Shown here piece by piece: positions 1 through 16,168 of a stretch of DNA of 64,000 nt. A program made the translations under genes and the position numbers. Source of the DNA: Beijerinckiaceae bacterium (GTDB lineage Bacteria > Pseudomonadota > Alphaproteobacteria > Rhizobiales > Beijerinckiaceae); contig JAPZTO010000003.1 of NCBI GenBank assembly GCA_027532775.1, positions 434,001 to 498,000 of the forward strand, given 5' to 3'. Positions within the stretch are counted from its first letter, which is position 1; the number at the start of each line of letters is the position of its first letter. The notes below the pieces were generated by a model that was not told where the DNA came from, did not search any database, and worked only from the letters and a program-made list of their open reading frames with translations.

Positions 1-917
1 ATCGCGCCGCCCGAGGTGAGCGGGCGTACGCCGCCCGAGCCGATATCAGCGAGCGCGAGATTGGTGTTCCCGCCACTCTCGACGCTCATCACCACCTGCG
101 TGCCATTGGGCGCGAAACGGGGCGCGAAGCTGGTCGTGTTGGCGGAGCCGACCACGGCGCGGCGGCCGGAGCCGAGATCGAGCACCTGCACATTGGCGCG
201 GCCGTTTTCCTCCAGCGACATGAAGGCAACGCGGTCACCGCGCGGGCTGAAGCGCGGCGTGATCAGCAATTCCGAGCCGGACGACAGTGCGCGGAAATTC
301 GCGCCGTCCTGATCGATGATGGCGAGGCGCTTGCGGCGCTTTTCCTTCGGGCCGGTTTCGTCGACGAAGATGATCCTTGTATCGAAGAAGCCGGTCTCGC
401 CGGTCATGCGCTCGAAAACGGCATCCGAGGCGAGATGGGCGAGGCGGCGCCAATTGGCGGGATCGATCGCATGCTTCTGCCCGATCACCTGCTTGCTCGT
501 CGTCGCATCCCAGAGGCGGTATTCGATGGCAAGGCGCGCGCCGTCCCGCACCACGCGGCCGGTGACGATGGCCTGCGCGCCGGCCTGTTGCCAGGCGGCG
601 AAATTCGGCACCTGGTCGAAGCCGAGGCTGCGTTCGGGATGGCGGGCCTTGTCGATCGGCTCGAACACGCCGGAGCGTTTGAGATTGGCCGACATGATCT
701 CGGCCAGCTGGATGCCCTGCGGATCGCCGGAGAAATCGACGATGGCAATGGGCATCGGCTTGAAGTTGCGCGGGTTCAGATCGATGCAGAGTTCTCCGGC
801 CCGGCAACCGCGATCCTGCGCGCGGAGTTCGCCGCTGAGATAGAGCGGCGCCGCCAGCGCCGTGATCAGGCCGAAGGCGAAGAATACGGGGCGGAACAAC
901 TGGAAGGGACGGTTCAT
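1..917 (-). CDS. tolB: Tol-Pal translocation protein TolB (N-terminal part, runs off the left edge)
   Basis: The first ~305 residues of the periplasmic Tol-Pal protein TolB are visible; the C-terminal part of the beta-propeller and presumably pal lie outside the window. The reading frame starts at ATG 917 with MNRPFQLFRPVFFAFG, a signal peptide that ends near LRAQD. The TolB N-terminal domain follows (PMPIAIVDFSG, LKRSGVFEPID), then the first propeller blades (ITPRFSPRGDRVAFMS and FAPRFAPNGTQVVMS, each a TolB repeat). TolB links outer-membrane Pal to the inner-membrane TolQRA complex, which draws the outer membrane in during division. It is the last visible gene of tolQ-tolR-tolA-tolB, 31 bp after tolA. 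Confidence 0.95.
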   Translation of the reverse strand, partial: MNRPFQLFRPVFFAFGLITALAAPLYLSGELRAQDRGCRAGELCIDLNPRNFKPMPIAIVDFSGDPQGIQLAEIMSANLKRSGVFEPIDKARHPERSLGFDQVPNFAAWQQAGAQAIVTGRVVRDGARLAIEYRLWDATTSKQVIGQKHAIDPANWRRLAHLASDAVFERMTGETGFFDTRIIFVDETGPKEKRRKRLAIIDQDGANFRALSSGSELLITPRFSPRGDRVAFMSLEENGRANVQVLDLGSGRRAVVGSANTTSFAPRFAPNGTQVVMSVESGGNTNLALADIGSGGVRPLTSGGA

Positions 918-948
918 GGCGTCGGTCTCGCGGGGGTGGCGAACGGGC

Positions 949-2136
949 TCATTGCATTTCCGAAGTGTCGAAATTCAACCGGACGTTCTTCCAGTCTTCG
1001 TAGGTATCCATGAAGCGGGCCGGGATACGGTAGGGCTGGCAGTTGCGCAAAGCCCGCATCGAGGCCTCGGCAAACGGCACGAAATTGGGCTCGCCGGAGC
1101 GGTTGGCCAGCTGGAGCTGACTGACGATGGCGCCATCGCGGCCCAGGGTGAAGGTGATCTGCGGGCCGGTTTTCGGCGCGGAGCCGGAATAGTTGAGGCA
1201 CCGGTTCATCTGCTCGGTGAGGATTCCGATGAGCTGCGACCGGTCCGAAGGCGAGAGCTTCGATCCCGTAGCCTGGGCCGTGCCGGCGGTCGATCGGGTA
1301 TTCACTGCGGCGCCGGTTGAGCCGGTCGAAGCGGGTGCCTCGCGGGACGCGAGCAGGCGATTGCGGATCGCATCGTTGAGCTTCTGCTCCTCGGCCGCCT
1401 CGCGGCGCGCCTTTTCCTCGCGCGCCTTCTTCTCGGCCTCGGCCTTGCGGCGCTCCTCGGCTTTTTTCTGCTCCTCGGCCTTCTTCAATTCCTCGGCCTT
1501 TTTCTGCTCCTCGGCCTTCTTGAGATCCTCGGCGCGCTTCTGCGCCTCGGCTTCGGCCTTGAGCTTCTCGTCCAGCTTGCGCCTGGCCTCGGCGGCCGCT
1601 TTGGCCTCCTCGAGCTTGCGCTGCTCCTCGATCTTCTTGCGGCGCAGGAGTTCGGCCTTCTCGTCTTCCTGATCGTCCTCCTCCGCCTTGACAGGCGGGG
1701 TCGGGACCGGCGGAGCGACGCGGAGTTCGGGCGGGCGGGTCGGCGGGATGATCGCCGCGAGCTGCTGCTGCTGGGGCTGCGGCTCGGGCTTTGTCTCGAC
1801 CTGCTGCGGCTCGGAGCGGCTCGGCGGTGTGGGAACGTCCCGTTTGGCCTGGCCGGGATCCTTGTCTTCCTTGATCTCGGCGACGCGGTCGATCCGGCGC
1901 TCCGGTGTCGGGGCGACGATTTTCGATTCCTTGTCGCCGCGCATCATCTCGCTGAATTGCTGATCGCTGACGACATCGACCGCGACGGCTTCCTGCGCGG
2001 GGTTGAAGGGCTTGGCGGAACTGAAGGAATAGAGGCCGAGGCCAAGCACGAGGGCATGGCCCATGGTCGAGACGAGGGTGCCCGGCTCGCGCCAGGAGAT
2101 TGCCCCCTTCAGATTGTCGACCAGCGCCTTCGGCAC
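949..2136 (-). CDS. tolA: Cell envelope integrity protein TolA
   Basis: 395 residues with a GTG start at 2136. It has the TolA architecture: one membrane helix at about residues 21-40, a Pro/Glu/Lys-rich linker, a long charged helix made of degenerate KKAEEQKKAEEL units (about 165-255), and a small C-terminal domain (about 293-395) with paired cysteines in RCLNYSG and RNCQPYRIP. TolA spans the periplasm and transmits TolQR motor force to TolB/Pal. The KAEE-type units give a run of short imperfect repeats in the DNA at about 1400-1640. It lies between tolR and tolB in the usual order. Confidence 0.93.
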   Translation of the reverse strand: MPKALVDNLKGAISWREPGTLVSTMGHALVLGLGLYSFSSAKPFNPAQEAVAVDVVSDQQFSEMMRGDKESKIVAPTPERRIDRVAEIKEDKDPGQAKRDVPTPPSRSEPQQVETKPEPQPQQQQLAAIIPPTRPPELRVAPPVPTPPVKAEEDDQEDEKAELLRRKKIEEQRKLEEAKAAAEARRKLDEKLKAEAEAQKRAEDLKKAEEQKKAEELKKAEEQKKAEERRKAEAEKKAREEKARREAAEEQKLNDAIRNRLLASREAPASTGSTGAAVNTRSTAGTAQATGSKLSPSDRSQLIGILTEQMNRCLNYSGSAPKTGPQITFTLGRDGAIVSQLQLANRSGEPNFVPFAEASMRALRNCQPYRIPARFMDTYEDWKNVRLNFDTSEMQ

Positions 2137-2151
2137 CGTGGCAGACCTCCG

Positions 2152-2598
2152 TTACTTCGTGTCGGCCGGTGCGTTGACCAGCCCGATCTTCGTGTAGCCG
2201 GCGCGCTGGAGCACGCCCATCACCTCGCCGACGCGGCCGTAATTCACCTGCGCGGCACCGCGGACATAGATCCGCTCGTCATAACCCTGCTTGGCGATGG
2301 CGCCGATCTCGGCGGCCAGCGTCTCGATTCGGGTTTCCTTGTCCTGCAGGAAGAGGCGCCCGCGCTCGTCGATCGTGACCGAAATCGGCTTCTGATCGAT
2401 ATTGAGCTGCGAGGCGCCGGTTTTAGGCAGGTCGACCGGCACGCCGGTGGTCAGCAGCGGCGCGGCGACCATGAAGATCACCAGCAGCACAAGCATCACG
2501 TCGATGAAGGGGATCATATTGAGATCCGCCATCGGTGCCGCCCGGCGCGACCGCCGCCTCTTGCCGCCGCCTCCGCCTGCATTCATTGCCATCGCCAT
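2152..2598 (-). CDS. tolR: Tol-Pal system protein TolR (ExbD family)
   Basis: 148 residues, ExbD/TolR family. A short basic Gly/Arg-rich cytoplasmic start precedes one membrane helix, FIDVMLVLLVIFMVAAP (about 31-50). The aspartate of FID (about residue 33) matches the proton-carrying Asp of the family. The periplasmic domain ends in the usual thioester-free TolR fold (VNYGRVGEVMGVLQRAGYTKIGLV). TolR and TolQ form the proton-driven stator-like motor that energises TolA. It sits 12 bp after tolQ and 15 bp before tolA, so it is in one operon. Several in-frame ATGs crowd the N-terminus, so the exact start could be a few codons later. Confidence 0.95.
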   Translation of the reverse strand: MAMAMNAGGGGGKRRRSRRAAPMADLNMIPFIDVMLVLLVIFMVAAPLLTTGVPVDLPKTGASQLNIDQKPISVTIDERGRLFLQDKETRIETLAAEIGAIAKQGYDERIYVRGAAQVNYGRVGEVMGVLQRAGYTKIGLVNAPADTK

Positions 2599-2610
2599 GG
2601 CCGGGCCTCC

Positions 2611-3327
2611 TTACGCCGCGCCGCGGGCCGGCGGCTGGCCGGCGCGTTCGTCGATCTGGCGCGAGAGGATGGCGGAGAATTCATCCGCGAAGCTTTCGAG
2701 GCGGCCCTGCGTGCGGGACACGTCCTTGACGAACTTGTTGTAGAAGATGTTGGCCGGAATGGCGGCCACCAGCGCGATCGCCGTGGCGAAAAGCGCCTCG
2801 GCAATGCCCGGCGCGACGACGGCCAGCGAGGTGTTCTTCGAGGCGGCGATCGAGCGGAAGGTCGTCATGATGCCGAAAACCGTGCCGAACAGGCCGACAT
2901 ACGGACCGACCGAGGCGATGGTGGCCAGCACCAGCAGTTTGGATTCCAGCCGCTCCACCTCGCGCGAGATCGAGACGTCGAGCACCTTGTCAATGCGGGT
3001 CTGCAGGCTGGCGAAACCACGGCCCGACCCTTCGAAGGTGCGGCGCCATTCGCCCATGGCCGCGACGAACAGGGCTGCGAAACCGTCCGTCGTTTTCTGG
3101 TGGAGCGAGCGGTACAGCTCGTCGAGGCTCTGGCCGGACCAGAACGTGTCTTCGAACTCGTTCATCCGCGCCTTCATCGCGCGCAGCATCATCGCCTTGT
3201 TGATGATGATCGCCCAGGACCAGACCGACGCCGCCATCAAGCCAAGCATGACCAGTTTCACGATGAAATGGGCATGCAGGAACAGGGCAATCAGCGAGAG
3301 ATCGGGGGTGGCATCGGCGCCTGGCAT
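2611..3327 (-). CDS. tolQ: Tol-Pal system protein TolQ (MotA/ExbB family)
   Basis: 238 residues, the usual TolQ length. It has three membrane segments: about 15-38, about 145-167 (SVGPYVGLFGTVFGIMTTF, the family signature), and about 180-203 (APGIAEALFATAIALVAAIP). The long cytoplasmic loop between helices 1 and 2 is typical. With TolR it forms the proton channel of the Tol-Pal envelope constriction machine. It is separated from ybgC upstream by 168 bp, long enough for its own promoter; that gap contains TTAACCAT on the minus strand, the sequence of a CtrA half-site, unproven here. Confidence 0.95.
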   Translation of the reverse strand: MPGADATPDLSLIALFLHAHFIVKLVMLGLMAASVWSWAIIINKAMMLRAMKARMNEFEDTFWSGQSLDELYRSLHQKTTDGFAALFVAAMGEWRRTFEGSGRGFASLQTRIDKVLDVSISREVERLESKLLVLATIASVGPYVGLFGTVFGIMTTFRSIAASKNTSLAVVAPGIAEALFATAIALVAAIPANIFYNKFVKDVSRTQGRLESFADEFSAILSRQIDERAGQPPARGAA

Positions 3328-3495
3328 GAGACTTCCTTCTTTCCGGCGCCCGGGAGGGCTCCGACAGGGACAGAACGCGGCTCTTGACCCCGTTTTGCGA
3401 CCAAACTGAGGCGCAGCACGGGAAAAGCCACGGCCGTGACCGCGCTGGGACAGCCGGTTCTATCCATCGACCTTTATGGTTAACCTTTGGTATAT

Positions 3496-3903
3496 TCAGA
3501 GCTTGTGCAATGCAACAAGCTGTGCCCGGAGAACGGGATCGAGCCGTTTCGGGCGGCCTTTCGCGAGGAAGGCGATGGTCACGCCGGCTTCGGCGAGGCA
3601 GATGTCCCCGCGGAGCAGGCGCTGATGCATGCGCAGGCTGGCGCCGCCGATTTCCGTGATCCGCGTCTCCACCGTGACCTCGTCATCCATCCGCGCGGGC
3701 TGATGGTAATCGATCGAGAGATGCCGGACCACGAAGGCGAAGGGCCCGCCCTCGGCCTCGAACAGGCTGCGCTGGTCAATGCCCGCCGCGCGCAGGGCCT
3801 CGGTGCGGCCGCGCTCGAAGAAATGCAGGTAGCGGGCATGGTAGACGAAGCCGGAGAAATCCGTGTCCTCGTAATAGATGCGCAGGGGCAGGGTGGCGGT
3901 CAT
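3496..3903 (-). CDS. ybgC: Tol-Pal associated acyl-CoA thioesterase YbgC
   Basis: 135 residues, hot-dog fold 4-hydroxybenzoyl-CoA thioesterase family. The active-site region YYEDTDFSGFVYHARY contains the catalytic Asp, followed by FFERGRTEAL. YbgC is routinely encoded beside tolQ, is a cytoplasmic thioesterase and has been linked to phospholipid metabolism. Its ATG overlaps the stop of the upstream metallophosphoesterase by 4 bp (ATGA), so the two are probably translationally coupled, although that upstream gene is not a normal partner of ybgC. Confidence 0.93.
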   Translation of the reverse strand: MTATLPLRIYYEDTDFSGFVYHARYLHFFERGRTEALRAAGIDQRSLFEAEGGPFAFVVRHLSIDYHQPARMDDEVTVETRITEIGGASLRMHQRLLRGDICLAEAGVTIAFLAKGRPKRLDPVLRAQLVALHKL

Positions 3904-4811
3904 GGCGGGCCCAGTTCAATCAGGACGATTTCCGGTGCAACACCCACCCGCACCGGCGCGATGCTGCAGCCGAGGCCGCCGGAGACGATAAGGTGGCTTT
4001 TGCCTCTTTGAAAATGTCCATGAGGATAAATCCTGCTGCCAATCGATGCAGCAGCAGGGCGCCAGCCCAAGATTTTGACCTGACCGCCATGGGTATGGCC
4101 GCACAGCGTCAGGCAAAAGCGATCCGGAACAGAAGGAAAGATATCCGGCTCATGGGCAAGCAGGATCGCGGGTTCATCGGACTTCAGAAGTGATATCGTC
4201 GCCCCCAGGTCGTCCAGCCCGACAACACGCCGTCCCGGTGGCGCGCCGCGTTTCAGGATCGCGAGTTGGTCAGCCAGCCCTGCAAGCCAGAATCCCTTGC
4301 CGTCTTTGTCTATTCGAACAACGCTGTTTTCGTAGACAGGGATTCCGACACCCTCAAGCGCCCTTCGAGCGATCGTTATACCGCCCCCTTGCCGCTGGGC
4401 TTCTCGATCATCCCACCAGTCATGGTTTCCGAGAACGGCATGCACACCAAGAGGTGCGGCAAGCCGGCCAAGTGGCTTGGCCCATTCCGGGGACGAAATT
4501 TCGCCAAGCCGCCATCGTTTCATCCCCGCCACGTAGTCACCGAGGAGAACGATAAGGTCCGGCTTCAATGAATTTGTCTGGTCGACGATGGAATGAATTC
4601 GCTCCACGGACATCCAAGGTTCGCAGGCATGGATATCGGCCAAAGCGGCAATCCTGAGATTGGTACCCTTCGGCCAATCGTCAGGCGCCAGCCGGTAGCG
4701 GGCGATGCGCGGGCGCTGCAGGGGGCCATAGCCGAACGCATAGGCCGCGCCGGCTGCCAGGCTGGCGAGGCTGGCGCCGAGGAATTTCAGGACCGTGCGA
4801 CGGGAGAGCAT
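3900..4811 (-). CDS. Metallophosphoesterase with N-terminal export signal
   Basis: 303 residues. The N-terminus MLSRRTVLKFLGASLASLAAG looks like a twin-arginine or lipid-anchoring signal and points to a periplasmic enzyme. Calcineurin-like metal-binding motifs follow in order: ALADIHACEP (DxH), LLGDYVAG (GDxx), VLGNHDWWDD (GNHD), LLAHEPDI and CGHTHGGQ (GHxH). The closest described families are YkuE/YaeI-type phosphodiesterases acting on membrane-associated substrates, but the substrate cannot be told from sequence. It is wedged between ruvB and ybgC, which are usually adjacent, and its base composition (3990-4560) looks less GC-rich than its neighbours, so acquisition by transfer is possible. 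Confidence 0.88.
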   Translation of the reverse strand: MLSRRTVLKFLGASLASLAAGAAYAFGYGPLQRPRIARYRLAPDDWPKGTNLRIAALADIHACEPWMSVERIHSIVDQTNSLKPDLIVLLGDYVAGMKRWRLGEISSPEWAKPLGRLAAPLGVHAVLGNHDWWDDREAQRQGGGITIARRALEGVGIPVYENSVVRIDKDGKGFWLAGLADQLAILKRGAPPGRRVVGLDDLGATISLLKSDEPAILLAHEPDIFPSVPDRFCLTLCGHTHGGQVKILGWRPAAASIGSRIYPHGHFQRGKSHLIVSGGLGCSIAPVRVGVAPEIVLIELGPP

Positions 4812-4854
4812 GCAAAAATACTTCCGGAGGCGGGGCAGACTCGGCGGTTGATTG

Positions 4855-5892
4855 TCACTCCTCCTCGCCCTCGAACAGGCCGAACTGGGCTGGCTGCCGC
4901 GTCGGCGCAGCCATCCCGAGATGGCGGAAGGCGGCGTCGGTGAGCAGCCGGCCGCGCGGGGTGCGCTGCAGGAAGCCCTGCTGGAGGAGATAGGGCTCGA
5001 TAATGTCCTCGATCGCGTCGCGCGGCTCGGACAGGGCAGCGGCCATGGTCTCGATGCCCACCGGCCCGCCGGAGAATTTCTCGGCGATGGTGGTGAGGTA
5101 GCGCCGGTCCATCAGGTCGAGGCCGATGGAATCGACATCGAGCATGGTCAGCGCCTTGTCGGCGATGGCGCGCGTCACCCTGTCCGCGCCCTCGACAATG
5201 GCGACATCGCGCACGCGACGGAGCAGGCGGCCGGCAATGCGCGGCGTGCCGCGCGCGCGGCGGGCGATCTCGTTCGCGCCATCCTCGCTCATGCCGATGC
5301 CGAGCACCCGCGCGCCGCGCGTCACGATCAGCTCGAGTTCCGCCACGGTGTAGAAATTCAGGCGGATCGGAATGCCGAAACGATCGCGCAGGGGCGTCGT
5401 CAGCAGGCCGGCGCGGGTGGTGGCGCCGACGAGCGTGAATTTCGGAAGGTCGATCTTGACCGAGCGGGCCGCCGGGCCTTCGCCGATGATCAGGTCGAGC
5501 TGGTAATCCTCCATGGCGGGGTAGAGGATTTCCTCGACCGCCGGGTTGAGGCGGTGGATCTCGTCGATGAAGAGCACGTCGCGCTCGTCGAGATTGGTCA
5601 GCTGCGCGGCAAGGTCACCGGCCTTGGCGATGACGGGGCCGGAAGTCGAGCGGAAATTGACGCCGAGCTCGCGCGCCACGATCTGCGCCAGCGTCGTCTT
5701 GCCGAGGCCGGGCGGGCCGACGAAGAGGACATGGTCCAGCGCCTCGCCGCGCGCCTTGGCAGCCTGGATGAAGACCTTGAGGTTCTCCTGCGCCTGCTGC
5801 TGGCCGATGAATTCACCGAGCGCGAGCGGGCGGATCGACTGATCCACGTCATCGCCGCGCTTTTCGGGATTGAGGAGGCCGGGGCGGGTCAT
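4855..5892 (-). CDS. ruvB: Holliday junction branch migration helicase RuvB
   Basis: 345 residues, full length. AAA+ motifs are Walker [13 protein letters not shown], Walker [11 protein letters not shown] and sensor 1 [11 protein letters not shown], followed by the arginine finger LRDRFG and a C-terminal winged helix ([17 protein letters not shown]). RuvB hexamers pump DNA through RuvA-bound Holliday junctions. Its ATG at 5892 overlaps the TGA of the inserted membrane-protein gene. The first 93 bases of the gene (5800-5892) are repeated at 6446-6538, where they lie directly behind the acetyltransferase gene in what was presumably the original ruvB start position. Confidence 0.97.
5800..5892 (-). 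repeat. Direct repeat copy A: the native 5' end of intact ruvB
   Basis: These 93 bp encode RuvB residues 1-31 and are identical to 6446-6538 except at 5821/6467. That change is synonymous (GCG versus GCC, both Ala). The two copies are in the same orientation, exactly 646 bp apart. Similarity fades immediately inside position 5800 and stops at the start codon. Confidence 0.97.
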
Positions 5893-6377
5893 GGAGCAGG
5901 CTCTCGTGTACGAGTATCGCTATGGAGGAAGTCAATTACCCGATGTATCAAGTATGCATTCAGGCATGCGACTGGGGTAAGAAAAACAATTACAAATGGA
6001 AATAAAATTCTCTCTTTAATAACATATGGATCACGTATGAAATCTAGAAAAAAAATTAACGCAGACAAACAAAGAATTAACCAAGTAATCATAAAGGACA
6101 ATAGCCAACGTCCGTAAAAAAACTTGTTTAAAATCGAAAAAATGGCGCCTCCAATAGCGGCGGGGACAATTAAATAAGAAAATGCAAATCTTATCGACAG
6201 GACGAATTCATCGATGTGAAACGCCAGAGGCTTTTTAAAAACACTCCGCAAATCAATGAGTGCCTGAAGGATAACTGCAAATATTGAGGAGACGGTTGGC
6301 GCAAAAATGGCTGACAACAGCGTGCCCGTAAGTGCGCAATGCACATAGCTGAATCTGTTGTTTGCCCAGGCACTCAT
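5889..6377 (-). CDS. AT-rich predicted four-helix membrane protein inserted at the ruvB start
   Basis: 162 residues from ATG 6377, chosen because this ATG overlaps the stop of the upstream ruvB fragment (ATGA); an ATG at 6404 would add nine residues. I recognise no family. Four hydrophobic segments are visible: about 9-38 ([18 protein letters not shown]), 55-75 ([17 protein letters not shown]), 82-103 ([16 protein letters not shown]) and 115-135 ([15 protein letters not shown]). There is no signal peptide or catalytic motif. Base composition is foreign: 6001-6060 contains only 13 G/C in 60 bases, against a strongly GC-rich surrounding. Its stop overlaps the ruvB ATG, so it is coupled at both ends. 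Immunity-like or phage-related roles are possible but unsupported. Confidence 0.8.
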
Positions 6378-6538
6378 TTTGCCTGCTCCTTCAGCCTTTG
6401 CCAAACGAGCGCGCTGATTGCGGCAATCTGGCCGAAAGTCTGCACCTGGCCGATGAATTCACCGAGGGCGAGCGGGCGGATCGACTGATCCACGTCATCG
6501 CCGCGCTTTTCGGGATTGAGGAGGCCGGGGCGGGTCAT
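6374..6538 (-). pseudogene. Truncated duplicate of the ruvB 5' end, fused to a 23-residue tail
   Basis: An open frame of 54 codons starts at ATG 6538. Residues 1-31 are identical to RuvB 1-31 ([16 protein letters not shown] through GEFIGQ). Residues 32-54 (VQTFGQIAAISALVWQRLKE and three more) are unrelated apart from a possible remnant Gln. Its ATG overlaps the acetyltransferase stop, and its TGA overlaps the ATG of the membrane protein. The fragment lacks all AAA+ motifs, so it cannot act as RuvB. It may serve only as a translated leader that carries ribosomes from the upstream gene into the inserted one. Confidence 0.85.
6446..6538 (-). repeat. Direct repeat copy B: displaced duplicate of the ruvB 5' end
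   Basis: Second copy of the 93-bp repeat described at 5800-5892, with one mismatch. It abuts the acetyltransferase stop codon, which is the expected ancestral position of ruvB, so the inserted unit is best defined as either 5893-6538 or 5800-6445 (646 bp). Confidence 0.97.
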
Positions 6539-7002
6539 AGCGTCTTCTCGAGGTCGATCAGGTCGCGGATGGGCAGGCCATCCGGATCGACCATCGGGAT
6601 GGAGGGCTTTTCCCGGCGGATCCCGGCCACGGCATCGCGATGCAGGGCGACAAGATGGTAGCCGCGCTTCTGGAAGAAGCGGAACGCGCCGAGATTGTTG
6701 TTCGTCGTGGCGAGGATCATCCGCGTTGCGCCGAGCTGGCGGGCTTCGCGCTCGGCAGCATCCATCAGGTTTGTGCCAACGCCTTGCTGCGGCACCTCGG
6801 TGTTGAGGCTGACCAACTCGGCAAGGCCGCCCTGCACAGCGAAGGTGACGAGCCCGGTCATGGCGCCGGCGCCATCGCGCGCGGCGAAGGCGTGCACCTC
6901 CGCCGGGCCATAGCGCCGCCGGGGGGTAACGATGCTCTCGCCGCGCCAGTGCCGGCGCCAGCCCGAGAGGAGATCGTCCATGCGGGCGGGCGCAATGATC
7001 AC
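6535..7002 (-). CDS. GNAT family N-acetyltransferase
   Basis: 155 residues from a GTG at 7002 that overlaps the ruvA stop by 4 bp; an ATG at 6981 (MDDLLSGW) is an alternative. The GNAT acetyl-CoA fold is shown by [20 protein letters not shown] (the Q/RxxGxG/A pyrophosphate loop, here QQGVGT) and [20 protein letters not shown], the classic motif for the C-terminal half. The substrate is unknown. It lies inside the ruv operon between ruvA and ruvB and is translationally coupled to both sides. Confidence 0.88.
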
Positions 7003-7616
7003 TTCGCCAGCTCCTTCAAGCCCTGCCGGATGAGCTGGCCGGTTTCGGCGCTCTCGCCGAGGGCCTTCGCGGCGGCGGCCACGGCGGCAGCGGCCTGCGG
7101 CTGGCCATAGCCGAGATTGACCAGCGCCGAGATCGCATCCTTCAGCGGGCCCTTCACGCGGCCTTCATCCGCCTCGCCGGCGAGTTTCGCCACGGCGGGA
7201 TCGACGGTGCCGAAAGCGGGTGCCTTGTCTTTCAGTTCCACGCAGATGCGCTCGGCCAGTTTCGGCCCGACCCCGGAGGTGCGGGCGATGGCGGCCTTGT
7301 CCTTCATGGCGATGGCATTGGCGAGTTCGGCCGGACGCAGCGTGGAGAGGATGGCGAGTGCCACTTTCTGGCCGACGCCCTGCACGCCGAGCAGGATGTT
7401 GAACCATTGCTGTTCCACCGCGCTCGCAAAGCCGAACAGGCGGATCATGTCCTCGCGGACGATGGTCTCGATGAAGAGCGTCGCCGCCTCGCCGGCCTGC
7501 GGCAGGGCCTGCAGGGTGCGGCTGGAGCAATGCACGAGATAGCCGACGCCGTGGACGTCAAGGATCACCGTATCCTCGCCGTAGCTGTCGATCACGCCTT
7601 TGAGCTTGCCGATCAT
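6999..7616 (-). CDS. ruvA: Holliday junction DNA helicase subunit RuvA
   Basis: 205 residues, normal length. The N-terminal OB domain starts [19 protein letters not shown], followed by two helix-hairpin-helix motifs ([14 protein letters not shown] and [12 protein letters not shown]) and a C-terminal domain III that contacts RuvB ([14 protein letters not shown]). RuvA tetramers grip the Holliday junction and load RuvB rings. It begins 3 bp after the ruvC stop and ends overlapping the acetyltransferase start, so ruvC-ruvA-GNAT-ruvB is one transcript. Confidence 0.97.
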
Positions 7617-7619
7617 GAT

Positions 7620-8105
7620 TTATCCCCGACCCCGATTATGGGCATGGCAGATGGCGATGGCGAGCGCATCGGCCATGTCGTCTGTGCGGAACTCGGCCTT
7701 GGGCAGCAGCACCTTCACCATCATCCGGATCTGCGCCTTTTCGGCATGGCCGGCGCCGACCACGCTCTTTTTCACCTGGTTCGGCGCATATTCGGCCACG
7801 CGCAGCCCCGCCTGTGCGGGCACGAGCATGGCGATGCCGCGCGCCGCGCCGAGCTTGAGGGTGGAGCGCGGATCCTTGTTCATGAAGGTTTCCTCGACCG
7901 CCGCTTCCTGCGGGGCGTGATCGGCGATGACGATGCGCAAGCCCTCATGGATGGCGGCCAGCCTGTCTGCCAGATCGGCCGAAGGGGTGGGCTCGACGGC
8001 GCCGCAGGCGATATAGGACAGCCGCGTCCCCTCGCTCTCGATGATGCCCCAGCCGGTATGGCGCAGCCCCGGATCAATGCCGATGATTCGCACGGATTTG
8101 CTCAT
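7620..8105 (-). CDS. ruvC: Crossover junction endodeoxyribonuclease RuvC
   Basis: 161 residues from ATG 8105 ([20 protein letters not shown]); a longer frame reaches 8186 but the family begins at this methionine. The RNase-H-like acidic residues are present: D in IGIDPG, E in [12 protein letters not shown], and the C-terminal D pair in [13 protein letters not shown]. RuvC dimers resolve Holliday junctions after RuvAB branch migration. It is the first gene of the ruv operon and is divergent from the TSUP transporter, with 68 bp between starts. Confidence 0.96.
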
Positions 8106-8173
8106 GCGATATCGGTAGTGCCGGATGCTGCCGCATGCTAGCGGGGAGGGCGCGACTCCCCGGAAATCTACCG

Positions 8174-8929
8174 ATGCTTGCCGCACTTTCCCTGCAGGAC
8201 TGGCTGGTTGTCGCTCTCGGCGCGGCCCTTGGCGGGCTGACGCGCGGCTTTACCGGCTTCGGCTTCGCGATGATCTTCATGCCGCTGGCGGCCAGCGTCC
8301 TGCCACCGCATGTCGCGCTCGCGGTGATCTGGGTCATCGATGCGCCTTTCGCACTGGTGCTCGGGATGCGGGCCTATCCGGCGGCCGACAAGAAAGGCGT
8401 GCTGACCCTGCTTGCCGCTGCAGCGCTGATGTTCCCGGTCGGGCTCCATGTGCTTATCCATGTCGATGCGCTGGTGATCCGCTGGATCATCTCCGGGCTG
8501 GTCATGGCGGCGGTGGTGATCCTTGCCAGCGGCTGGCGCTATCACGGCCGGCCCGGCCTTCCGCTCACGCTGTCGGTGGGGAGCCTTTCCGGGCTGTTCA
8601 ACGGGCTCGCAAGCCTGAGCGGGCTGCCGCTCGCCCTGTTCTGGCTGTCGAGCCAGAGCCGCCAGCCGGCCGAGATCCGGGCCGACATGCAGACCTATTT
8701 CCTGTTCTCGACCTTTGTTTCCGGGGCCATCCTCGGCTATCGCGGCATCCTGACGGTCGAGACCCTGCTGATCGCGCTCAGCGTTATGCCGGCCTATGGC
8801 TCGATGCTCTATCTCGGCACACGGGGCTACCATATCGCCAGCGAGGCGACATTCCGGCGGATCGCCTATGCGATCATCGCCCTGGCGGCGATCCTGTCGC
8901 TGCCGGTGCTGGATGGCTGGATCCGCTGA
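8174..8929 (+). CDS. TSUP (sulfite exporter TauE/SafE) family membrane permease
   Basis: 251 residues from ATG 8174 ([21 protein letters not shown]); an in-frame ATG at 8135 would add a hydrophilic extension. About seven to eight hydrophobic helices are visible, and the family repeat signature occurs twice: [19 protein letters not shown] near the N-terminus and [20 protein letters not shown] in the middle. Members export sulfonates, sulfite or other organic acids; the substrate cannot be inferred. It stands alone, convergent with yebC (5-bp gap). Confidence 0.9.
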
Positions 8930-8934
8930 AGCGT

Positions 8935-9681
8935 TCAGGCCGTCAGCTTCGCCATCACCTCTTCCGACACGTCGAAATTCGAGAAGACGTGCTGGACATC
9001 GTCATCATTGTCGAGGTTGTCGATGAGCTTCATGACGCTCCGGGCCCGTTCCTCGTCGAGATCGACGGTGTTCTGCGGCTTCCAGATCGCCTTGGCGGAG
9101 GCCGGCGCGCCAAGGGAGGCCTCCAGCGCCTTCGAGACATCCGAGAGATCGGAGAAGGCGCAGAGAATCGTATGGCCGTTCTCGTCCGAGGCGACATCCT
9201 CGGCGCCGGCTTCGATGGCGGCTTCCATCACCCTGTCGGCATCGCCGATGCTCGCCGGATAGGTGATCTCGCCGACGCGGTCGAACATGAAGGTGGCCGA
9301 ACCGGTGGCGCCCAACTCGCCGCCCGCCTTGGTGAAATAGGAACGCACGGCCGCGCCGGTGCGGTTCCGGTTGTCGGTCAGCGCCTCGACGATCAGCATC
9401 ACACCGCCGGGGCCGCGGCCCTCGTAGCGCACTTCCTCGTAGCTCTCGCCGTCGCCGCCGGCGGCCTTCTTGATGGCGCGCTCGATATTGTCCTTCGGCA
9501 TGTTCTCGGCCCGCGCGGCAAGAATCGCCATGCGCAGGCGCGGATTCATTGCCGGGTCAGGCAGGCCGAGCTTGGCTGCCACCGTGATTTCGCGCGCCAG
9601 CTTGCCGAACACCTTCGAGCGCACGGCATCCTGCTTGCCCTTGCGATGCATGATGTTCTTGAATTGCGAATGACCGGCCAT
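8935..9681 (-). CDS. yebC: YebC/TACO1 family protein
   Basis: 248 residues. It starts [19 protein letters not shown], diagnostic of YebC, with [17 protein letters not shown] and [15 protein letters not shown] further on. The family was long annotated as transcriptional regulators; recent work on bacterial and mitochondrial members ties it to relieving ribosome stalling at proline stretches. It lies downstream of ymdB in the alphaproteobacterial order zapA-6S RNA-ymdB-yebC. Confidence 0.95.
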
Positions 9682-9783
9682 GGTCAGCCTCCGGGCGCTG
9701 GAATGGGTCGAGATGGGCGCGGCTTATAGCAAAAGCGCGGCCCAAGGAAAGAGCGGGCTGCCGGAATGGCCGCCCCGCCGGCT

Positions 9784-10599
9784 CTACCAATCAGGCAGGG
9801 TCTCGGTGAGATGGGCGCCCTGGCGGACCGGCGCGATACGCCGGGCGAGGCCCGTGCGATCATCGGTCTCGACGAGAATGCCACTGACTGCGCCGTCGCC
9901 GGAGGCCGATTCCCAGCGCGAGCCGGGAACCTTCTCGACGAGGCGGCGGGTCGGTTCGCGCCAGTCGAAGCCGATCACCGAGAGGTAATCCCCGCACATG
10001 CCGGCATCCGTCTGGTAGGCGGTGCCGCCGGGGAAGAGGCGATGATCGGCGGTGGGTACATGGGTATGGGTGCCGACCGCCACAGAGACACGGCCATCGA
10101 AATGCCAGGCGAGCGCCTGCTTTTCGGCCGTGGCCTCGGCATGGAGATCGAGCAGGATGGCATCGGCCATGTCGCGCAGCGGGCAAAGCTCGACCTCGCG
10201 CTCGGTGGCGCGGAACGGGCAATCGACGGCATCCATCGAAATGCGCCCGAGCACGTTGATGACGAGGACGCGGCGACCATCGGCCAGTTCGACGAGCGCG
10301 GCACCACGGCCGGGCGTGCCGGGCGGAAGGTTGGCCGGCCGTACCAGACGGGGTGCGCGCTCGATGAAAACCAGCGTCTCGCGTTGGTCGAACGCATGGT
10401 TGCCAAGCGTGATCGCATCGGCGCCGGCATCCAGCAATTCCTGATAGATGCCTTCGGTGATGCCGAAGCCGCCCGCCGCGTTCTCGCCGTTGATGACCAC
10501 GCAATCCGGCTTGAGCCGGGCACGCAGGGCCGGGAGGTAACGCTGGACGGCCTCGCGGCCGGGACGGCCGACGACATCACCGAGAAAGAGAAGACGCAT
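9784..10599 (-). CDS. ymdB: YmdB-type metallophosphoesterase (TIGR00282 family)
   Basis: 271 residues from ATG 10599 (MRLLFLGDVVGRPGREAV); a longer frame to 10902 runs into the 6S RNA and is rejected. Metal ligands appear in order: FLGDVVG, VINGENAAGGFG, ITLGNHAFDQ, DLHAEATAEK and GTHTHVPTAD. Members are cytoplasmic 2',3'-cyclic-nucleotide phosphodiesterases; in Bacillus YmdB affects biofilm and mRNA turnover. Upstream, where many proteobacteria encode 5-formyltetrahydrofolate cyclo-ligase, the 6S RNA follows directly with no fau gene between. Confidence 0.92.
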   Translation of the reverse strand: MRLLFLGDVVGRPGREAVQRYLPALRARLKPDCVVINGENAAGGFGITEGIYQELLDAGADAITLGNHAFDQRETLVFIERAPRLVRPANLPPGTPGRGAALVELADGRRVLVINVLGRISMDAVDCPFRATEREVELCPLRDMADAILLDLHAEATAEKQALAWHFDGRVSVAVGTHTHVPTADHRLFPGGTAYQTDAGMCGDYLSVIGFDWREPTRRLVEKVPGSRWESASGDGAVSGILVETDDRTGLARRIAPVRQGAHLTETLPDW

Positions 10600-10649
10600 G
10601 GAGACCGCCTGCGGAAACTCGTGCCGCGCAAAACGGCGGGAAGGTGCGG

Positions 10650-10840
10650 AGCCGCGAAGACCGGTGGAGTGTCGATCCCGGGAACCTACATAAGTAGGTG
10701 GGCGCCGTGTACCCGGACCCACGAGTCCGGATAGGTACAGCTCCCTAAGGATCGTTAAGGCCCCGGGGAATACGTATAACCTGCCGCATCCTGCAGCCCC
10801 GCGTCGACAATGTAGGCGTTGCGACGCTTCAGGGAAAGAG
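10650..10840 (-). ncRNA. ssrS: 6S RNA (SsrS), regulator of sigma-70 RNA polymerase
   Basis: The 315-bp gap between zapA and ymdB has no credible gene but matches 6S RNA by place and pattern. On the minus strand the 3' half reads GGCGCCCACCTACTTATG, with the hairpin CACCTACTTATGTAGGTTCC followed by CGGGATC, the layout of proteobacterial 6S RNAs. A central GTACC...GGTAC stem (about 10695-10740) and a TTAACGATCC segment also fit. In many proteobacteria ssrS lies immediately downstream of zapA. The ends are approximate, because I could not align the closing stem with certainty. 6S RNA mimics an open promoter and sequesters sigma-70 holoenzyme. Confidence 0.72.
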
Positions 10841-10914
10841 GTTTCGGACAGGATCCGGAACGAAGTGCGACGCGGGAGCTGTATCCGCGCCCGAAGCCTC
10901 ATCCCGGGCGCGCA

Positions 10915-11295
10915 TCATTCATGGCGGGTTTCGGCCTTCGGCGCCGAGAGCATGCGGGCGATACGGTCTATGCGCTGGGTCAGGCCGTCGAGGCTGGCGG
11001 CGATCGCCGTGTCGCGCTGGAGGGCCGCCTCCTGCACATTCTGGCGGGAATGCCGGTCCTGCTCGGCCAGTTGCCGCAGTTCCGTGCCCTTGCGGCGCTC
11101 CTCGAACAGTTCGTCCGTCACCATCAGTGCCGCCATCACCGTGAGCCGGAGATCGCCGATCTCGCCGAAGGATTCGCGCACCATGCGGATGCGGTTGTCG
11201 AGATCGAGGGCCAAAGCCTCGAGATGCCGTTCCTGCCCGTCCTCGCAGGCCATGCGGAACTGCTTGCCATCGATGGTCACGGTGACATGCGCCAT
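10915..11295 (-). CDS. zapA: Cell division protein ZapA
   Basis: 126 residues from ATG 11295 (MAHVTVTIDGKQFRMACEDG). The N-terminal beta-hairpin domain (about 1-45) and GQERHLEALALDLDNRI match ZapA. A long coiled coil follows (SRQNVQEAALQRDTAIAASL), and the tail is longer than in E. coli ZapA. ZapA cross-links FtsZ filaments in the Z ring. It lies 4 bp downstream of the DUF4164 gene and immediately upstream of the 6S RNA. Confidence 0.92.
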   Translation of the reverse strand: MAHVTVTIDGKQFRMACEDGQERHLEALALDLDNRIRMVRESFGEIGDLRLTVMAALMVTDELFEERRKGTELRQLAEQDRHSRQNVQEAALQRDTAIAASLDGLTQRIDRIARMLSAPKAETRHE

Positions 11296-11299
11296 CCGG

Positions 11300-11569
11300 T
11301 CAGTCCTGGGCGAGGCTCTGCCGCAGGGCGGCGATGGCGCGGTCGATGCGGGGCGCGAGATCGGCGAGGTGGGTCTCGGCCAGGAAGCGGGCTGCCTTCT
11401 CCTCGTCAAGGGCGCGGGCCAGCTGGTGGCGATCCTCGCGCATGAGGGACAATTCGCTTTCCAGCGTCTGACGGGCGCGGTCTCCGTCCGCATGGCGAAG
11501 CGAGGCCGCATCAAGGCGGTCCAGGGCTGCGGACATCCGCGCCAGGGCTTCGCGTATCGGCTCGCTCAC
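11300..11569 (-). CDS. DUF4164 family small coiled-coil protein
   Basis: 89 residues from a GTG at 11569. It is almost entirely alpha-helical and charged (LERLDAASLRH-like heptads, EDRHQLARALDEEKAARFL). DUF4164 proteins sit directly upstream of zapA in Hyphomicrobiales and have no established function; the coiled coil and operon partner suggest a divisome-associated role. The gene ends 4 bp before the zapA start codon. Confidence 0.8.
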   Translation of the reverse strand: MSEPIREALARMSAALDRLDAASLRHADGDRARQTLESELSLMREDRHQLARALDEEKAARFLAETHLADLAPRIDRAIAALRQSLAQD

Positions 11570-11825
11570 CGGTGCATTCCATTCTGCATCGCGGCCCGTG
11601 CCGCATGCGCGCTGCCCGAGGCGCCAGCCCGAACAGGCGCTTGGACGGCGAAACTTATGCAGTGCCTGAGCGCCCGGTCAACCGAGGAAACGCGCATCCG
11701 CAAGGTTTTCAGCGCTTGAATGCAAGGTTCCCGGCGCGGGCATGTTCCACAAATTGCCAAGAGAATTCGGTCGACGAACGCGCTATGGGAAACAATATTC
11801 TCAAAAGAAGCCTGCGGAGGAAAAC

Positions 11826-13730
11826 ATGCTCCAGAGCCGATATGCCGATGTCTATTCCCGCTGGCGGGAAGTGCCCGAGTCTTTCTGGCTGGATGCGGCC
11901 CGCGAACTGGACTGGATCGAGCCGCCGCAGAGGGCTTTCGACGCTGATGCCGGGCTCTATGGCCGCTGGTTCCCGGATGCCCGTTGCAACACCTCGCAGA
12001 ATTGCCTGGACCGGCATGTCGCGTCCGGCCGAGGCGACCAGCCGGCGGTGATCTACGATTCCCCGATGACCGGGTCGAGCCAGGTCCTGACCTATGCCGA
12101 ACTGCTCCGCGCGGTGGAGACGCTCGGGCATGTGCTCAAGGGGCATGGCGTGGTCAAGGGCGACCGGGTCATTCTCTACATGCCGATGATCCCCGAAGCG
12201 GTGGTTGCGATGCTGGCCTGCGCGCGGATCGGCGCCATCCATTCGGTGGTGTTCGGCGGCTTTGCGGCGCGTGAACTCGCGACCCGCATCGACGATGCCA
12301 CGCCGAAGCTGATCCTCGCGGCGTCCTGCGGGCTCGAACCCGGGCGGATCGTCGCCTACAAGCCGCTGCTCGACCGCGCGATCGAGGAGGCAACGCACAA
12401 GCCGGAGGGCTGCATCATCCTGCAGCGGCCGCAGGCTGTGGCCGAACTGGTGCCGGGCCGCGATTTCGACTGGCAGGCGGAGACCGGGGCGGCGGCCGGG
12501 AAGGGTGCGCTGGCGCCGGAGCCTGTGCTGGCGACGGATCCGCTCTATGTGCTCTACACCTCCGGGACGACAGGCAAGCCCAAGGGCGTCGTCCGCGACA
12601 ATGGCGGGCACATGGTGGCTTTGCACTGGTCGATGGGAGCGCTCTATGGTGTCGAGGCTGGCGATGTCTACTGGGCCGCGTCGGATGTCGGCTGGGTGGT
12701 CGGCCATTCCTACATCGTCTATGCGCCGCTGCTGAAGGGCTGCACGACCATTCTCTATGAAGGCAAGCCCGTCGGTACACCTGATCCCGGCGCGTTCTGG
12801 CGTGTGATCTCGGAACACGGGGTCAAGGTGCTGTTCACGGCCCCGACCGCCTTCCGGGCGATCCGCAAGGAGGATCCCGAGGCGAAGCACCTTGCGCGGT
12901 ATGATCTCTCGCGCTTCGGGGCGCTGTTTCTGGCCGGCGAGCGCGCCGATCCGGATACGGTGAAATGGGCCGAGCAGGTGCTCGGCGTGCCGGTCATCGA
13001 CCATTGGTGGCAAACGGAAACCGGCTGGTGCATCGCCGGCAACCCGCTGGGCCTTGGCCTGCTGCCGGTCAAGCATGGTTCGCCGACGGTGCCGATGCCG
13101 GGCTATGATATCCATATCGTCGACGAGGCCGGCAAGGAGGTTCCCGCCGGGCTGATGGGCTCGATCGTGGTGAAGCTGCCGCTGCCGCCGGGCGCGCTGC
13201 CGACGCTGTGGCAGGCGGATGACCGGTGCCGCGAGGCCTATTTCGAGGAGTTCCCGGGCTATTACAAAACTGCGGATGCCGGATATCGCGATGGCGATGG
13301 CTATCTCTTCATCATGGGCCGCACAGACGATATCATCAATGTGGCGGGGCATCGCCTCTCCACCGGCGGCATGGAGGAGGTGCTGGCCTCGCATCCGGCC
13401 GTGGCGGAATGCGCGGTGATCGGTGCCCGCGATACGCTGAAGGGCGAGGTTCCGGTGGGCTTCGTGGTGCTCAAGGCGGGCAGCAACCAGGCCCATGCGG
13501 CCATCGCGAAGGAATGCGTGGCCCTGGTGCGCGACCGGATCGGCCCCGTGGCGGCGTTCAAGACCGCGCTCGTCGTCAACCGCTTGCCGAAAACGCGCTC
13601 GGGCAAGATCCTGCGCGGCACGATGAAGAAGATCGCCGATGGCGATGCCTGGTCGATGCCGGCCACGATCGACGATCCGGCCATCCTCGACGAGATCGCC
13701 GACGTGCTGAAGGCGACAACCATCGCCTGA
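11826..13730 (+). CDS. prpE: Propionyl-CoA synthetase (acetyl-CoA synthetase-like)
   Basis: 634 residues from ATG 11826, preceded by GGAGGA at the right distance; a longer frame from 11742 lacks such a site. An ACAS N-terminal domain (YADVYSRWREVPESFWLDAA) leads into the AMP-binding core with the phosphate loop VLYTSGTTGKPKGVVRDNGG, the DHWWQTETGW motif, HYKTADAG-like FPGYYKTADAGY, and the acylated lysine region KTRSGKILRGTMKK. PrpE activates propionate with ATP and CoA; length and start favour PrpE over acetate-specific Acs, but specificity is inferred. The gene stands alone, divergent from DUF4164. Confidence 0.88.
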   Translation: MLQSRYADVYSRWREVPESFWLDAARELDWIEPPQRAFDADAGLYGRWFPDARCNTSQNCLDRHVASGRGDQPAVIYDSPMTGSSQVLTYAELLRAVETLGHVLKGHGVVKGDRVILYMPMIPEAVVAMLACARIGAIHSVVFGGFAARELATRIDDATPKLILAASCGLEPGRIVAYKPLLDRAIEEATHKPEGCIILQRPQAVAELVPGRDFDWQAETGAAAGKGALAPEPVLATDPLYVLYTSGTTGKPKGVVRDNGGHMVALHWSMGALYGVEAGDVYWAASDVGWVVGHSYIVYAPLLKGCTTILYEGKPVGTPDPGAFWRVISEHGVKVLFTAPTAFRAIRKEDPEAKHLARYDLSRFGALFLAGERADPDTVKWAEQVLGVPVIDHWWQTETGWCIAGNPLGLGLLPVKHGSPTVPMPGYDIHIVDEAGKEVPAGLMGSIVVKLPLPPGALPTLWQADDRCREAYFEEFPGYYKTADAGYRDGDGYLFIMGRTDDIINVAGHRLSTGGMEEVLASHPAVAECAVIGARDTLKGEVPVGFVVLKAGSNQAHAAIAKECVALVRDRIGPVAAFKTALVVNRLPKTRSGKILRGTMKKIADGDAWSMPATIDDPAILDEIADVLKATTIA

Positions 13731-13749
13731 GTGCTGCCCTGCCGGCATG

Positions 13750-13779
13750 AAAAAGGCGGCGCTCCCTTGGGAGGCCGCC
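13750..13779 (-). terminator. Rho-independent terminator of trcR
   Basis: On the minus strand, GGCGGCCTCCC pairs with GGGAGCGCCGCC across a short loop, followed by TTTTT. It lies 41 bp past the trcR stop, between two convergent genes. Confidence 0.8.
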
Positions 13780-13820
13780 CGTCTTCCGTTTCTGCCGGGC
13801 GATCCGGCAGGAAGCGGGCT

Positions 13821-14498
13821 TCATTCCTCGTCGGAATCAACCGGCTTCAGGTCCTTCAGCCGGGCAAAAACATGCTCGGCATCCAGCTCGACCTTCTTCT
13901 TCGGCGCTTCCGCGGCCGTCGTCAGCTCGGCGGGGATGAGCGTCGCGCCGGTATCAACCACCGGGGCCGGCGGCCGATCCTTGGAGGCGCGGCTGACTTC
14001 CAGATCAAGGTCGATCTGCGAGCAGAGGCCCAGCGTCACCGGGTCGAGCGGCTGGAGGTTGCCGGAATTCCAGTGCGTCCGCTCGCGGACCGACTGGATC
14101 GTCGACTTGGTGGTACCGACGAGGCGGATGATCTGGGCATCCTTCAGTTCGGGATGGTTCTTGATGAGCCACTGGATCGCGTTCGGGCGGTCCTGCCGCT
14201 TCGAGACCGGCGTGTAGCGCGGGCCCTTGGTGCGCTTCAGGTCAGGCAGGCGGACTTTCGGCTCAAGTAGCCTCAGGCGGTAATCGGGGTTGGCTTCAGC
14301 CTTCTCGAGTTCCTCGCGCGAGAGCTGGCCGGCCTGGACAGGGTCAAGGCCCTTCATTCCGGCCGCGACGTCGCCATCGGCAATGCCCTTCACTTCCAGC
14401 GGATGCAGGCTGCAGAAGGCCGCAATCTGGTCGAACGTGAGCGCAGTATTCTCGACCAGCCAGACAGCCGTCGCCTTGGGCATCAGCAAGCTTGCCAT
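13821..14498 (-). CDS. trcR: Cell cycle transcriptional regulator TrcR (DUF1013)
   Basis: 225 residues. DUF1013 proteins are alphaproteobacterial; the Caulobacter member TrcR associates with RNA polymerase and is tied to cell-cycle gene control. Conserved blocks are MPKATAVWLVENTALTFDQI at the N-terminus, FCSLHPLEVKGIADGDV, and a helix-turn-helix-like segment DAQIIRLVGTTKSTIQSVRE. The C-terminal 60 residues are Ala/Pro-rich and probably flexible. A second ATG (MPKATAV) lies five codons in and could be the real start. It is divergent from the DUF1192 gene. Confidence 0.9.
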   Translation of the reverse strand: MASLLMPKATAVWLVENTALTFDQIAAFCSLHPLEVKGIADGDVAAGMKGLDPVQAGQLSREELEKAEANPDYRLRLLEPKVRLPDLKRTKGPRYTPVSKRQDRPNAIQWLIKNHPELKDAQIIRLVGTTKSTIQSVRERTHWNSGNLQPLDPVTLGLCSQIDLDLEVSRASKDRPPAPVVDTGATLIPAELTTAAEAPKKKVELDAEHVFARLKDLKPVDSDEE

Positions 14499-14678
14499 CG
14501 ATCACCTCTCCTGCTTTTCCATCCGCCGGGGCATGCAGATACGTCTTCCCGTTCGCGCCGCCTTCCCCGGGGCGGCCCGCAGCGAGCAAGTCTCGATGCC
14601 AATTTGGGAATGCGCCCTTATACTGTCCGGATTTGGTGCATGCAACAGCCCAGAATGCCAATCCGGGGAAACACGCTG

Positions 14679-14867
14679 ATGTTCGATGATGATGCCAAGC
14701 CGAAGAAGAAGCCGGTGCACGAGATCGGCCAGGACCTCTCGCTGCTCTCGCTTTCGGAGATCACCGAACGAATCACGCAGCTCGAAGCCGAAATCATCCG
14801 GCTGAAGGAAGCTCATGGGCGCAAACAAAGCAGCCAGGCGGCAGCCGATGCCTTGTTCAAACGGTAG
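14679..14867 (+). CDS. DUF1192 family small coiled-coil protein
   Basis: 62 residues from ATG 14679. The family pattern MFDDDAKPKKKPVHEIGQDL is followed by LSLSEITERITQLEAEIIRL, a short amphipathic coiled coil. No function is established. In Hyphomicrobiales it is typically found next to rcdA (DUF1465), as here, and is divergent from trcR with 180 bp between starts. Confidence 0.85.
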   Translation: MFDDDAKPKKKPVHEIGQDLSLLSLSEITERITQLEAEIIRLKEAHGRKQSSQAAADALFKR

Positions 14868-14951
14868 CCGGAAAGCCACAGCACTTGGAAAATTTTGTGA
14901 AATCATAGGGTTATCAAAAGATATATGGCATTTGATGAAAATTGTCCGAAT

Positions 14952-14966
14952 TTAACAGGTCTTTAA
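14952..14966 (+). promoter_or_regulatory. Candidate CtrA-binding box TTAA-N7-TTAA
   Basis: TTAACAGGTCTTTAA is an exact match to the CtrA full site (TTAA, seven bases, TTAA). It sits about 30 bp upstream of a predicted small RNA and 264 bp upstream of the rcdA start, in an AT-rich stretch where a -35 element would lie. A further TTAACCAT half-site is at 15115-15122. CtrA is the alphaproteobacterial master cell-cycle regulator. Occupancy is not shown here. Confidence 0.6.
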
Positions 14967-14984
14967 GCTTTTTCGCATAACCTT

Positions 14985-15084: not shown

Positions 15085-15229
15085 GGTTCTGAGGCCCGTT
15101 CAGGGCGGCCAGCGTTAACCATTCGACCATCAGGGTTCTGTCGAACGCCCCGCTTGGTGTTAGTCTTGCAGAAACCTTCCGTATCAACCGGCCGCGTCCC
15201 ATCGCGGCACAGAGGATGCGGAGACGGAC

Positions 15230-15778: not shown

Positions 15779-15791
15779 TCGCACAACAAGA

Positions 15792-15820: not shown

Positions 15821-15859
15821 TTTACGGGGATCGACCGCGCTGCTTGGCGCGGGATCGCC

Positions 15860-16090: not shown

Positions 16091-16168
16091 GGAACCAGCC
16101 TTTCAAAACTCCGCTTGCCGGCCGCTTTCGCTGGCCGCCCAAACGCCAAAATCCTTCGCGAGAGCGCC

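Follow-up and report, generated by a model that had tools for sequence, protein, structure and literature searches.

In the focal genome (G000; 3.8 Mb in total), an intact ruvB is preceded by a second copy of its own 5' end, and a small membrane protein gene lies between the two copies. On balance, we favor the view that recombination with a chromosomal fragment arriving from a related lineage left this unit behind. The fragment would have carried a ruvA 3' end, the membrane gene and ruvB, and one of its two ends would have been joined illegitimately. The unit is probably not a mobile element. We start from features that were observed directly: the repeat, a hybrid frame with a RuvA-like tail, a second genome with the same arrangement, empty sites in relatives, and discordant divergence of the membrane gene from its neighbors. 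Throughout, "the window" denotes the whole 64,000-nt stretch of DNA that was analyzed.

A repeated ruvB head within a coupled operon

A repeat search and a blastn self-comparison both recovered a direct repeat of the ruvB head (Table 1), 99 nt long and 97% identical, with a spacing of 646 bp (E 6.7e-41) and DNA of 42% GC between the copies. A sequence-only reading of the window had described this as a repeat of ruvB codons 1-31, 646 bp apart, with a single synonymous difference, and the two comparisons confirm it: the first 93 nt agree at 92 of 93 positions, the sole difference being at codon 24, which is GCG in the intact gene and GCC in the extra copy (both Ala). Because GCC is also found at this codon in the ruvB of G002, G012, G013 and G015, the change probably arose in the intact G000 gene and not in the extra copy. 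The ancestral ruvB start is the one at 6538: it overlaps the stop codon of the acetyltransferase gene, and the same is seen in G002 and G013, where the site is empty. When we scanned 464 kb (the window and a further 400 kb of its contig) for repeats of at least 50 bp and at least 80% identity, 150-4000 bp apart, with E of at most 1e-8, two pairs passed: the ruvB-head pair and a 56-bp perfect repeat with a spacing of 192 and a spacer of 63% GC.

On the minus strand the genes follow the order ruvA, GNAT acetyltransferase, a 54-codon hybrid frame, the 162-aa membrane protein and intact ruvB, and all four junctions from ruvA to ruvB are stop/start overlaps (ATGA or GTGA). The insertion had been claimed to leave ruvB intact and inside the operon; the gene is indeed a 345-aa frame with RuvB domains, and the stop/start overlaps are kept. 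No tRNA was detected at positions 1-20000, and Rfam models gave no hit at gathering scores across 4500-8500.

Table 1. Features of the ruvA-ruvB region, in window coordinates
Feature	Position	Strand	Evidence and remarks
ruvA, 205 aa	6999..7616	-	Pfam RuvA_N, HHH_5, RuvA_C; Lys-stop codons supply the start codon of the next frame
GNAT acetyltransferase	6535..7002	-	Pfam Acetyltransf_1, 2.4e-10; older resident of the ruvA-ruvB slot
Repeat copy 2 (extra ruvB head)	6440..6538	-	ATG overlaps the acetyltransferase stop; ancestral position of the ruvB start
Relic hybrid ORF, 54 aa	6374..6538	-	opens with ruvB codons 1-31, continued in frame by a tail resembling the RuvA C-terminus
Putative RuvA-derived tail of the hybrid	6374..6415	-	includes AAGGAG (6386-6391), similar to a Shine-Dalgarno sequence, and the stop/start overlap with the membrane gene
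Small protein, 162 aa, four hydrophobic segments, AT-rich	5889..6377	-	open frame, hydropathy; stop overlaps the ruvB start
Repeat copy 1	5794..5892	-	first 99 nt (codons 1-33) of intact ruvB
Intact ruvB, 345 aa	4855..5892	-	Pfam RuvB_N, 1.1e-79, with lid and C-terminal domains

The hybrid frame ends like RuvA

In the hybrid frame the ruvB head is joined in frame to a RuvA-like tail, without strong microhomology at the junction. The end of the G000 relic shares 7-9 of 13 residues with the RuvA C-termini of the genus, whereas other ORF ends in the window share at most 5 of 13; the comparison took in 425 ends, the relic and ruvA included, and the two higher values belong to ruvA and, by its scores, the relic. 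At the nucleotide level, the last 24 nt of the G000 relic match the ruvA ends of the five-species clade at 18-20 positions and those of all 15 genus genomes compared at 15-20, and the 42 nt upstream of these match the genus ends at 23-29. For the relic of the second carrier, G012, the corresponding values against the 15 genus ends are 16-21/24 and 20-25/42. Part of the 24-nt match could reflect shared translation signals; the 42-nt upstream match in G000 argues for descent from ruvA. Upstream of its Shine-Dalgarno part, the G012 tail is only weakly ruvA-like by the same measure. Compared with the ruvA of its own genome, the G000 relic tail is identical at 26 of 39 nt, and the G012 tail aligns without gaps over the last 21 aa, with 12 identities and the same stop.

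This in-frame ruvB-ruvA hybrid, with both stop/start overlaps kept, is the unusual feature of the locus. Since a RuvA-like C-terminus stands at the start of the inserted DNA, the source would seem to be a chromosomal ruvA-X-ruvB segment. The DNA between the repeats had been called foreign and AT-rich; AT-rich it is, but about 40-66 bp beside the extra head resemble a ruvA 3' end, and the whole can thus not be called foreign. Between the ruvA 3' end and the ruvB head, microhomology reached at most 10/12 nt in the six genomes compared, and lay away from the junction. An ALGE motif seen at the protein level was considered as crossover microhomology and dropped, because it gives fewer than 10/12 nt in the DNA.

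A second carrier with a discordant membrane gene

The same arrangement is present in G012, a metagenome-assembled genome of the same genus, in which the GNAT gene, a 44-codon ruvB-head/ruvA-tail frame, the membrane protein gene and ruvB lie on one contig; ruvA and the first part of the GNAT gene are on another contig, with an overlap of 119 identical bases. Because another genome shows this order on a single contig, an assembly artefact, which had been raised as a possible undoing of the unit, is unlikely. The two heads in G012 differ at one site over their first 68 nt. Since the heads within each carrier differ at a single site, they suggest either recent duplication or ongoing gene conversion. 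Near-identity ends after about 93 nt in G000 and about 71-75 nt in G012.

Between the two carriers, dS is 0.30 for ruvB, 0.28 for ruvA and 0.29 for GNAT (76 codons available), whereas for the membrane gene it is 2.24, near saturation. From this difference it follows that the membrane genes were not inherited together with their flanks, at least one having been acquired or replaced separately. In a ruvA plus ruvB tree, G012 grouped with G002 (0.998), which would make the carriers non-sisters; the order within the five-species clade is lost after trimming of the divergent ruvB 3' end, so the tree was not used for counting gains, and it does not distinguish separate gains of the unit in the two carriers from a shared one.

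The ruvB 3' end is itself of note. Its last ~115 aligned nt (about 4858-4972) are far more divergent in most species pairs, with up to 27 differences, and one version of this stretch is common to G002 and G012 (6 differences); it is likely a recombined tract. Downstream of ruvB lies a gene (window 3900-4811) that by eye encodes a metallophosphoesterase, with matches in G002 (90%) and G012 (70%). In G015 the next gene follows ruvB directly, and in G013 there is ~1.06 kb without a match there. Given these differing contents, the other flank of ruvB is variable too.

The membrane protein itself has one homologue, 42% identical, in G012. In the family search its gene occurs in 2 of 397 genomes, G000 and G012, both of which carry the scar, and a search of genome_contigs gave one locus, again that of G012. 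An order-level profile search (397 genomes, evidently without G012) returned G000 and one match of E 0.008 over 60 positions. There was no match in plasmid and phage collections (tblastn) or in viral_contigs, and none above curated cut-off in PADLOC, NCBIfam or PHROGs; the best PDB match had E 0.16. Neither frame of the unit, relic or membrane protein, has a Pfam match above cut-off, the best for the membrane protein being E 0.19 in G000 and 0.046 in G012. The other membrane proteins of the slot (G005, G009, G018, G020, G035, G085, G136) were compared with the focal pair; no homology was detected, and those listed scored within the range of shuffled controls. In G136, which belongs to a different genus, the ruvA-ruvB gap (L131; 604 bp, 47% GC) holds a hydrophobic protein of ~170 aa, content of the same kind as the focal unit without detectable sequence similarity.

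Empty sites and distribution

A second ruvB head occurs in 2 of the 17 genus genomes, G000 and G012. Comparison of the junction in relatives, which the sequence-only reading had proposed as a check, therefore shows a patchy unit: G002 and G013 have ruvA-GNAT-ruvB with nothing inserted, and G015 has two GNAT genes and no scar. That reading had further proposed looking for duplicated ruvB 5' ends elsewhere, and such a search returned the second carrier and no further countable scar among the 397 family genomes. Specifically, a search with the RuvB N-terminus, which would probably miss a relic of 24-31 residues in a distant genus, gave two matches in 7 of the 397 genomes and none in 18. Besides the two carriers, the genomes with two matches were G266, G372, G373, G382 and G405, and none was counted as a scar. 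The two matches of G373, and likewise those of G382, fall within open frames of 337-370 aa on different contigs; those of G266, G372 and G405 are at contig ends, and by eye no ruvA was recognized among the frames listed beside those of G266 and G405.

We also searched the genus gaps for copies of their own flanking gene ends, using mononucleotide shuffles as the null; the ruvA tail was sought in 16 gaps and the ruvB head in 17. A ruvB head was found in G000 and G012 only, and a clear ruvA tail in G000, G012, G004 and G011. Weak ruvA-tail matches in G003, G005, G009 and G013 (score 19-28; 95% point of the null 17-23) were treated as chance; that of G009 is a 19-nt stretch above all 300 shuffles. 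Outside the genus the self-comparison covered 40 further family loci, 27 of them with ruvA upstream in range and 17 of these with a gap of more than 60 bp; 20 other family and order loci were left out. L139 (G147) alone passed, with 28 for the ruvA tail (maximum of 100 shuffles 29) and 30 for the ruvB head (maximum 26), and its ruvB-head-like stretch is possibly chance or an old relic.

The ruvA-ruvB interval as a variable slot

Fifteen genomes of the genus carry ruvA and ruvB on a single contig, separated by a gap of 109 to 1145 bp. A GNAT gene occupies the gap in 12 of 17 genomes; all are related and form about three groups, with tandem pairs in G001 and G015. Other contents include small membrane proteins (G005, G009) and DNA that by eye is repeat-like (G004, G008, G011). 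In G003 the gap (L034) contains a 36% GC gene for a 189-aa protein that fills the slot exactly with both stop/start overlaps; the protein has a weak, below-cutoff HEPN match (E 0.0023). The gaps of G004 (L035) and G011 (L042) each contain a diverged ruvA 3' end copy, set in DNA encoding VIARNDVTKQS-type peptides, which is another sign of capture or duplication of the ruvA end there. In G004 this ruvA-tail/peptide unit appears twice. In G007 (L038), where two GNAT copies stand side by side, the second is intact and the first by eye looks disrupted by a change of frame, which suggests that stacked genes decay.

All 15 ruvA 3' ends examined (a set without G012 and G016) supply, through their last codon and stop, the start codon of the following frame, which in G006 is only 37 codons long. 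GGAG or GGAA stands just upstream of the ruvA end in 15 of 15 (a set with G012, without G007 and G016). At the ruvB end, a stop/start overlap was not found in G004, G006, G007, G008 and G016. Because no such overlap was found in these five genomes, the two-sided socket is common but not general.

A more tentative proposal, one that we rate as possible and short of probable, is that the ruvA-ruvB junction of the genus is a cassette slot that needs no recombinase. The ruvA 3' end would provide the Shine-Dalgarno sequence and start codon, and the ruvB 5' end the stop (A-TGA-CC); a gene arriving between homologous ruvA and ruvB ends could then be translationally coupled from birth, and a second, stacked cassette would leave a ruvB-ruvA hybrid relay ORF. 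If this is true, the duplicated ruvB head would permit later precise loss. Among the open-licence papers that searches listed, no title or abstract opening presents the ruvA-ruvB interval as an insertion site.

Origin of the unit

Under the recombination reading that we favor, one end of the unit would have formed by homologous recombination inside ruvB and the other by illegitimate joining of the recipient's ruvB, at codon ~24-31, to the donor's ruvA 3' end. The route would be homology-facilitated illegitimate recombination (HFIR), or else two ruvA-X-ruvB loci crossing over unequally to the same effect. The new gene would have joined the operon behind the acetyltransferase already there, which stayed in place. 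The hybrid ORF was probably tolerated because it keeps the operon coupled, as it starts on the overlapping start of ruvB and ends on the Shine-Dalgarno and stop/start of ruvA; it probably persists by relaying translation from the acetyltransferase to the membrane gene. What we infer here is the donor, the succession of crossovers and coupling as the cause of retention. The homologous anchor on one side is present, in the form of the repeated ruvB head (93-99 bp) and the intact gene behind it. No donor in which an intact ruvA leads straight into the membrane gene was found among the 397 family genomes or in genome_contigs. Ku was not found in the genome (the control search detects it in 1 of 14), so that end joining would have to proceed some other way. 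ComEC is present, as it is in 10 of the 14 controls; being widespread, it does not prove competence.

The unit could instead have arisen in situ, by tandem duplication of ruvA tail, GNAT and ruvB head through unequal sister exchange, after which a membrane gene from elsewhere took the place of the second GNAT by ordinary homologous recombination. This, too, would yield a ruvB-ruvA hybrid junction, and it is in keeping with the tandem GNAT paralogues of G001 and G015, the apparently broken first copy in G007 and the ruvA-tail copies in G004 and G011. We nevertheless regard it as rather unlikely: it needs an extra step, and the ruvA tail is far more diverged (26/39 nt) than the ruvB head (92/93 nt), unless the head alone was homogenized.

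Two mechanisms had been named in the sequence-only reading, a small circle and a site-specific element by which the target gene is restored. The geometry that it described stands, but neither mechanism is needed and nothing specific supports them. Campbell-type integration of a circle carrying ruvB head, ruvA tail and membrane gene, for instance a 646-bp circle set free in another cell by recombination between the direct repeats, would leave the same end product after a single RecA crossover, and the 93-bp near-identity exceeds the ~30-bp RecA threshold that PMC2884548 cites for E. coli. Two genomes hold related units with very different membrane genes, as a circle might also explain. Against this, no circle, replicon or recombinase was seen, and the membrane protein is unmatched in the plasmid, phage and viral_contigs collections; we hold this origin to be less likely still.

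We give little credence to the idea that the hybrid ORF is itself functional, as a mini RuvB-RuvA peptide acting on RuvAB: its frame is open in both genomes and links the start of RuvB with a portion of the C-terminal region of RuvA, but just the last ~13-21 RuvA residues remain, at low conservation.

The Phage_integrase profile has no match in the window, the nearest of 8 matches in the genome lying ~108 kb away on the same contig, which agrees with the earlier statement that no integrase is present, as regards tyrosine integrases. The earlier dismissal of a transposase target-site duplication also holds, as the duplication is 93 bp of coding sequence and neither frame of the unit has a Pfam match above cut-off. 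Least probable of all is a site-specific integrative element regenerating the ruvB 5' end: the target is regenerated and G000 and G012 use the same gene, but the missing integrase and Pfam matches, the lack of a constant attachment site (repeat of ~93 bp in G000 versus ~71-75 bp in G012) and the unexplained ruvA-like 3' end inside the unit all speak against it.

Taken together, the scar suggests a route by which a coupled core operon can gain a gene with no mobile element involved and with the downstream gene unbroken. It also offers a signature that can be searched for in other operons, the head of the downstream gene fused to the tail of the upstream gene. The negative outcome is of use for the mobile-element question: when 93 bp of coding sequence are duplicated around a small AT-rich gene, that alone is no call for a new element.

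Relation to known systems

The rulAB operon, similar in name, is a UV-mutagenesis polymerase operon unrelated to ruvAB. Integron-like elements are reported to insert site-specifically into rulB of pWW0 (PMC4542609); there the operon is an insertion hotspot, whereas the focal unit has no Phage_integrase match in the window. In pneumococcus, transformation-induced merodiploidy by alternative pairing is described as unequal exchange between repeats, producing a duplication whose joint is a hybrid repeat (PMC3784515). Those duplications span ~100-900 kb and were first described between incomplete IS861 copies, whereas the focal unit measures 646 bp.

Closer in scale are the small variable segments of E. 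coli, S. aureus and S. pyogenes, which are described as mostly not known mobile elements, flanked by direct repeats in 10-18% of cases, and attributed largely to illegitimate recombination (PMC2884548). Their repeats are mostly shorter than 30 bp, in contrast to the 93 bp of coding sequence in the focal unit. HFIR combines one homologous anchor, one illegitimate end and the gain of a foreign gene (PMC2884548, PMC3240628). The focal unit would fit this pattern, although the case for it is drawn from sequence comparison and its scar is the in-frame hybrid with both overlaps kept; the kind of process is known, and the hybrid is its unusual part.

For the T6SS immunity-gene arrays of Vibrio cholerae, an HFIR-like build-up that leaves remnants of displaced genes has been proposed, and the arrays, once built, move by ordinary homologous recombination (PMC5361080). 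As in the focal unit, added genes stack beside older ones at one locus, with remnants. The Vibrio arrays are toxin/immunity loci, whereas the focal locus is a housekeeping repair operon with nothing showing toxin or immunity function. The nearest precedent for the ruvB unit is HFIR that leaves remnants, as proposed for these arrays.
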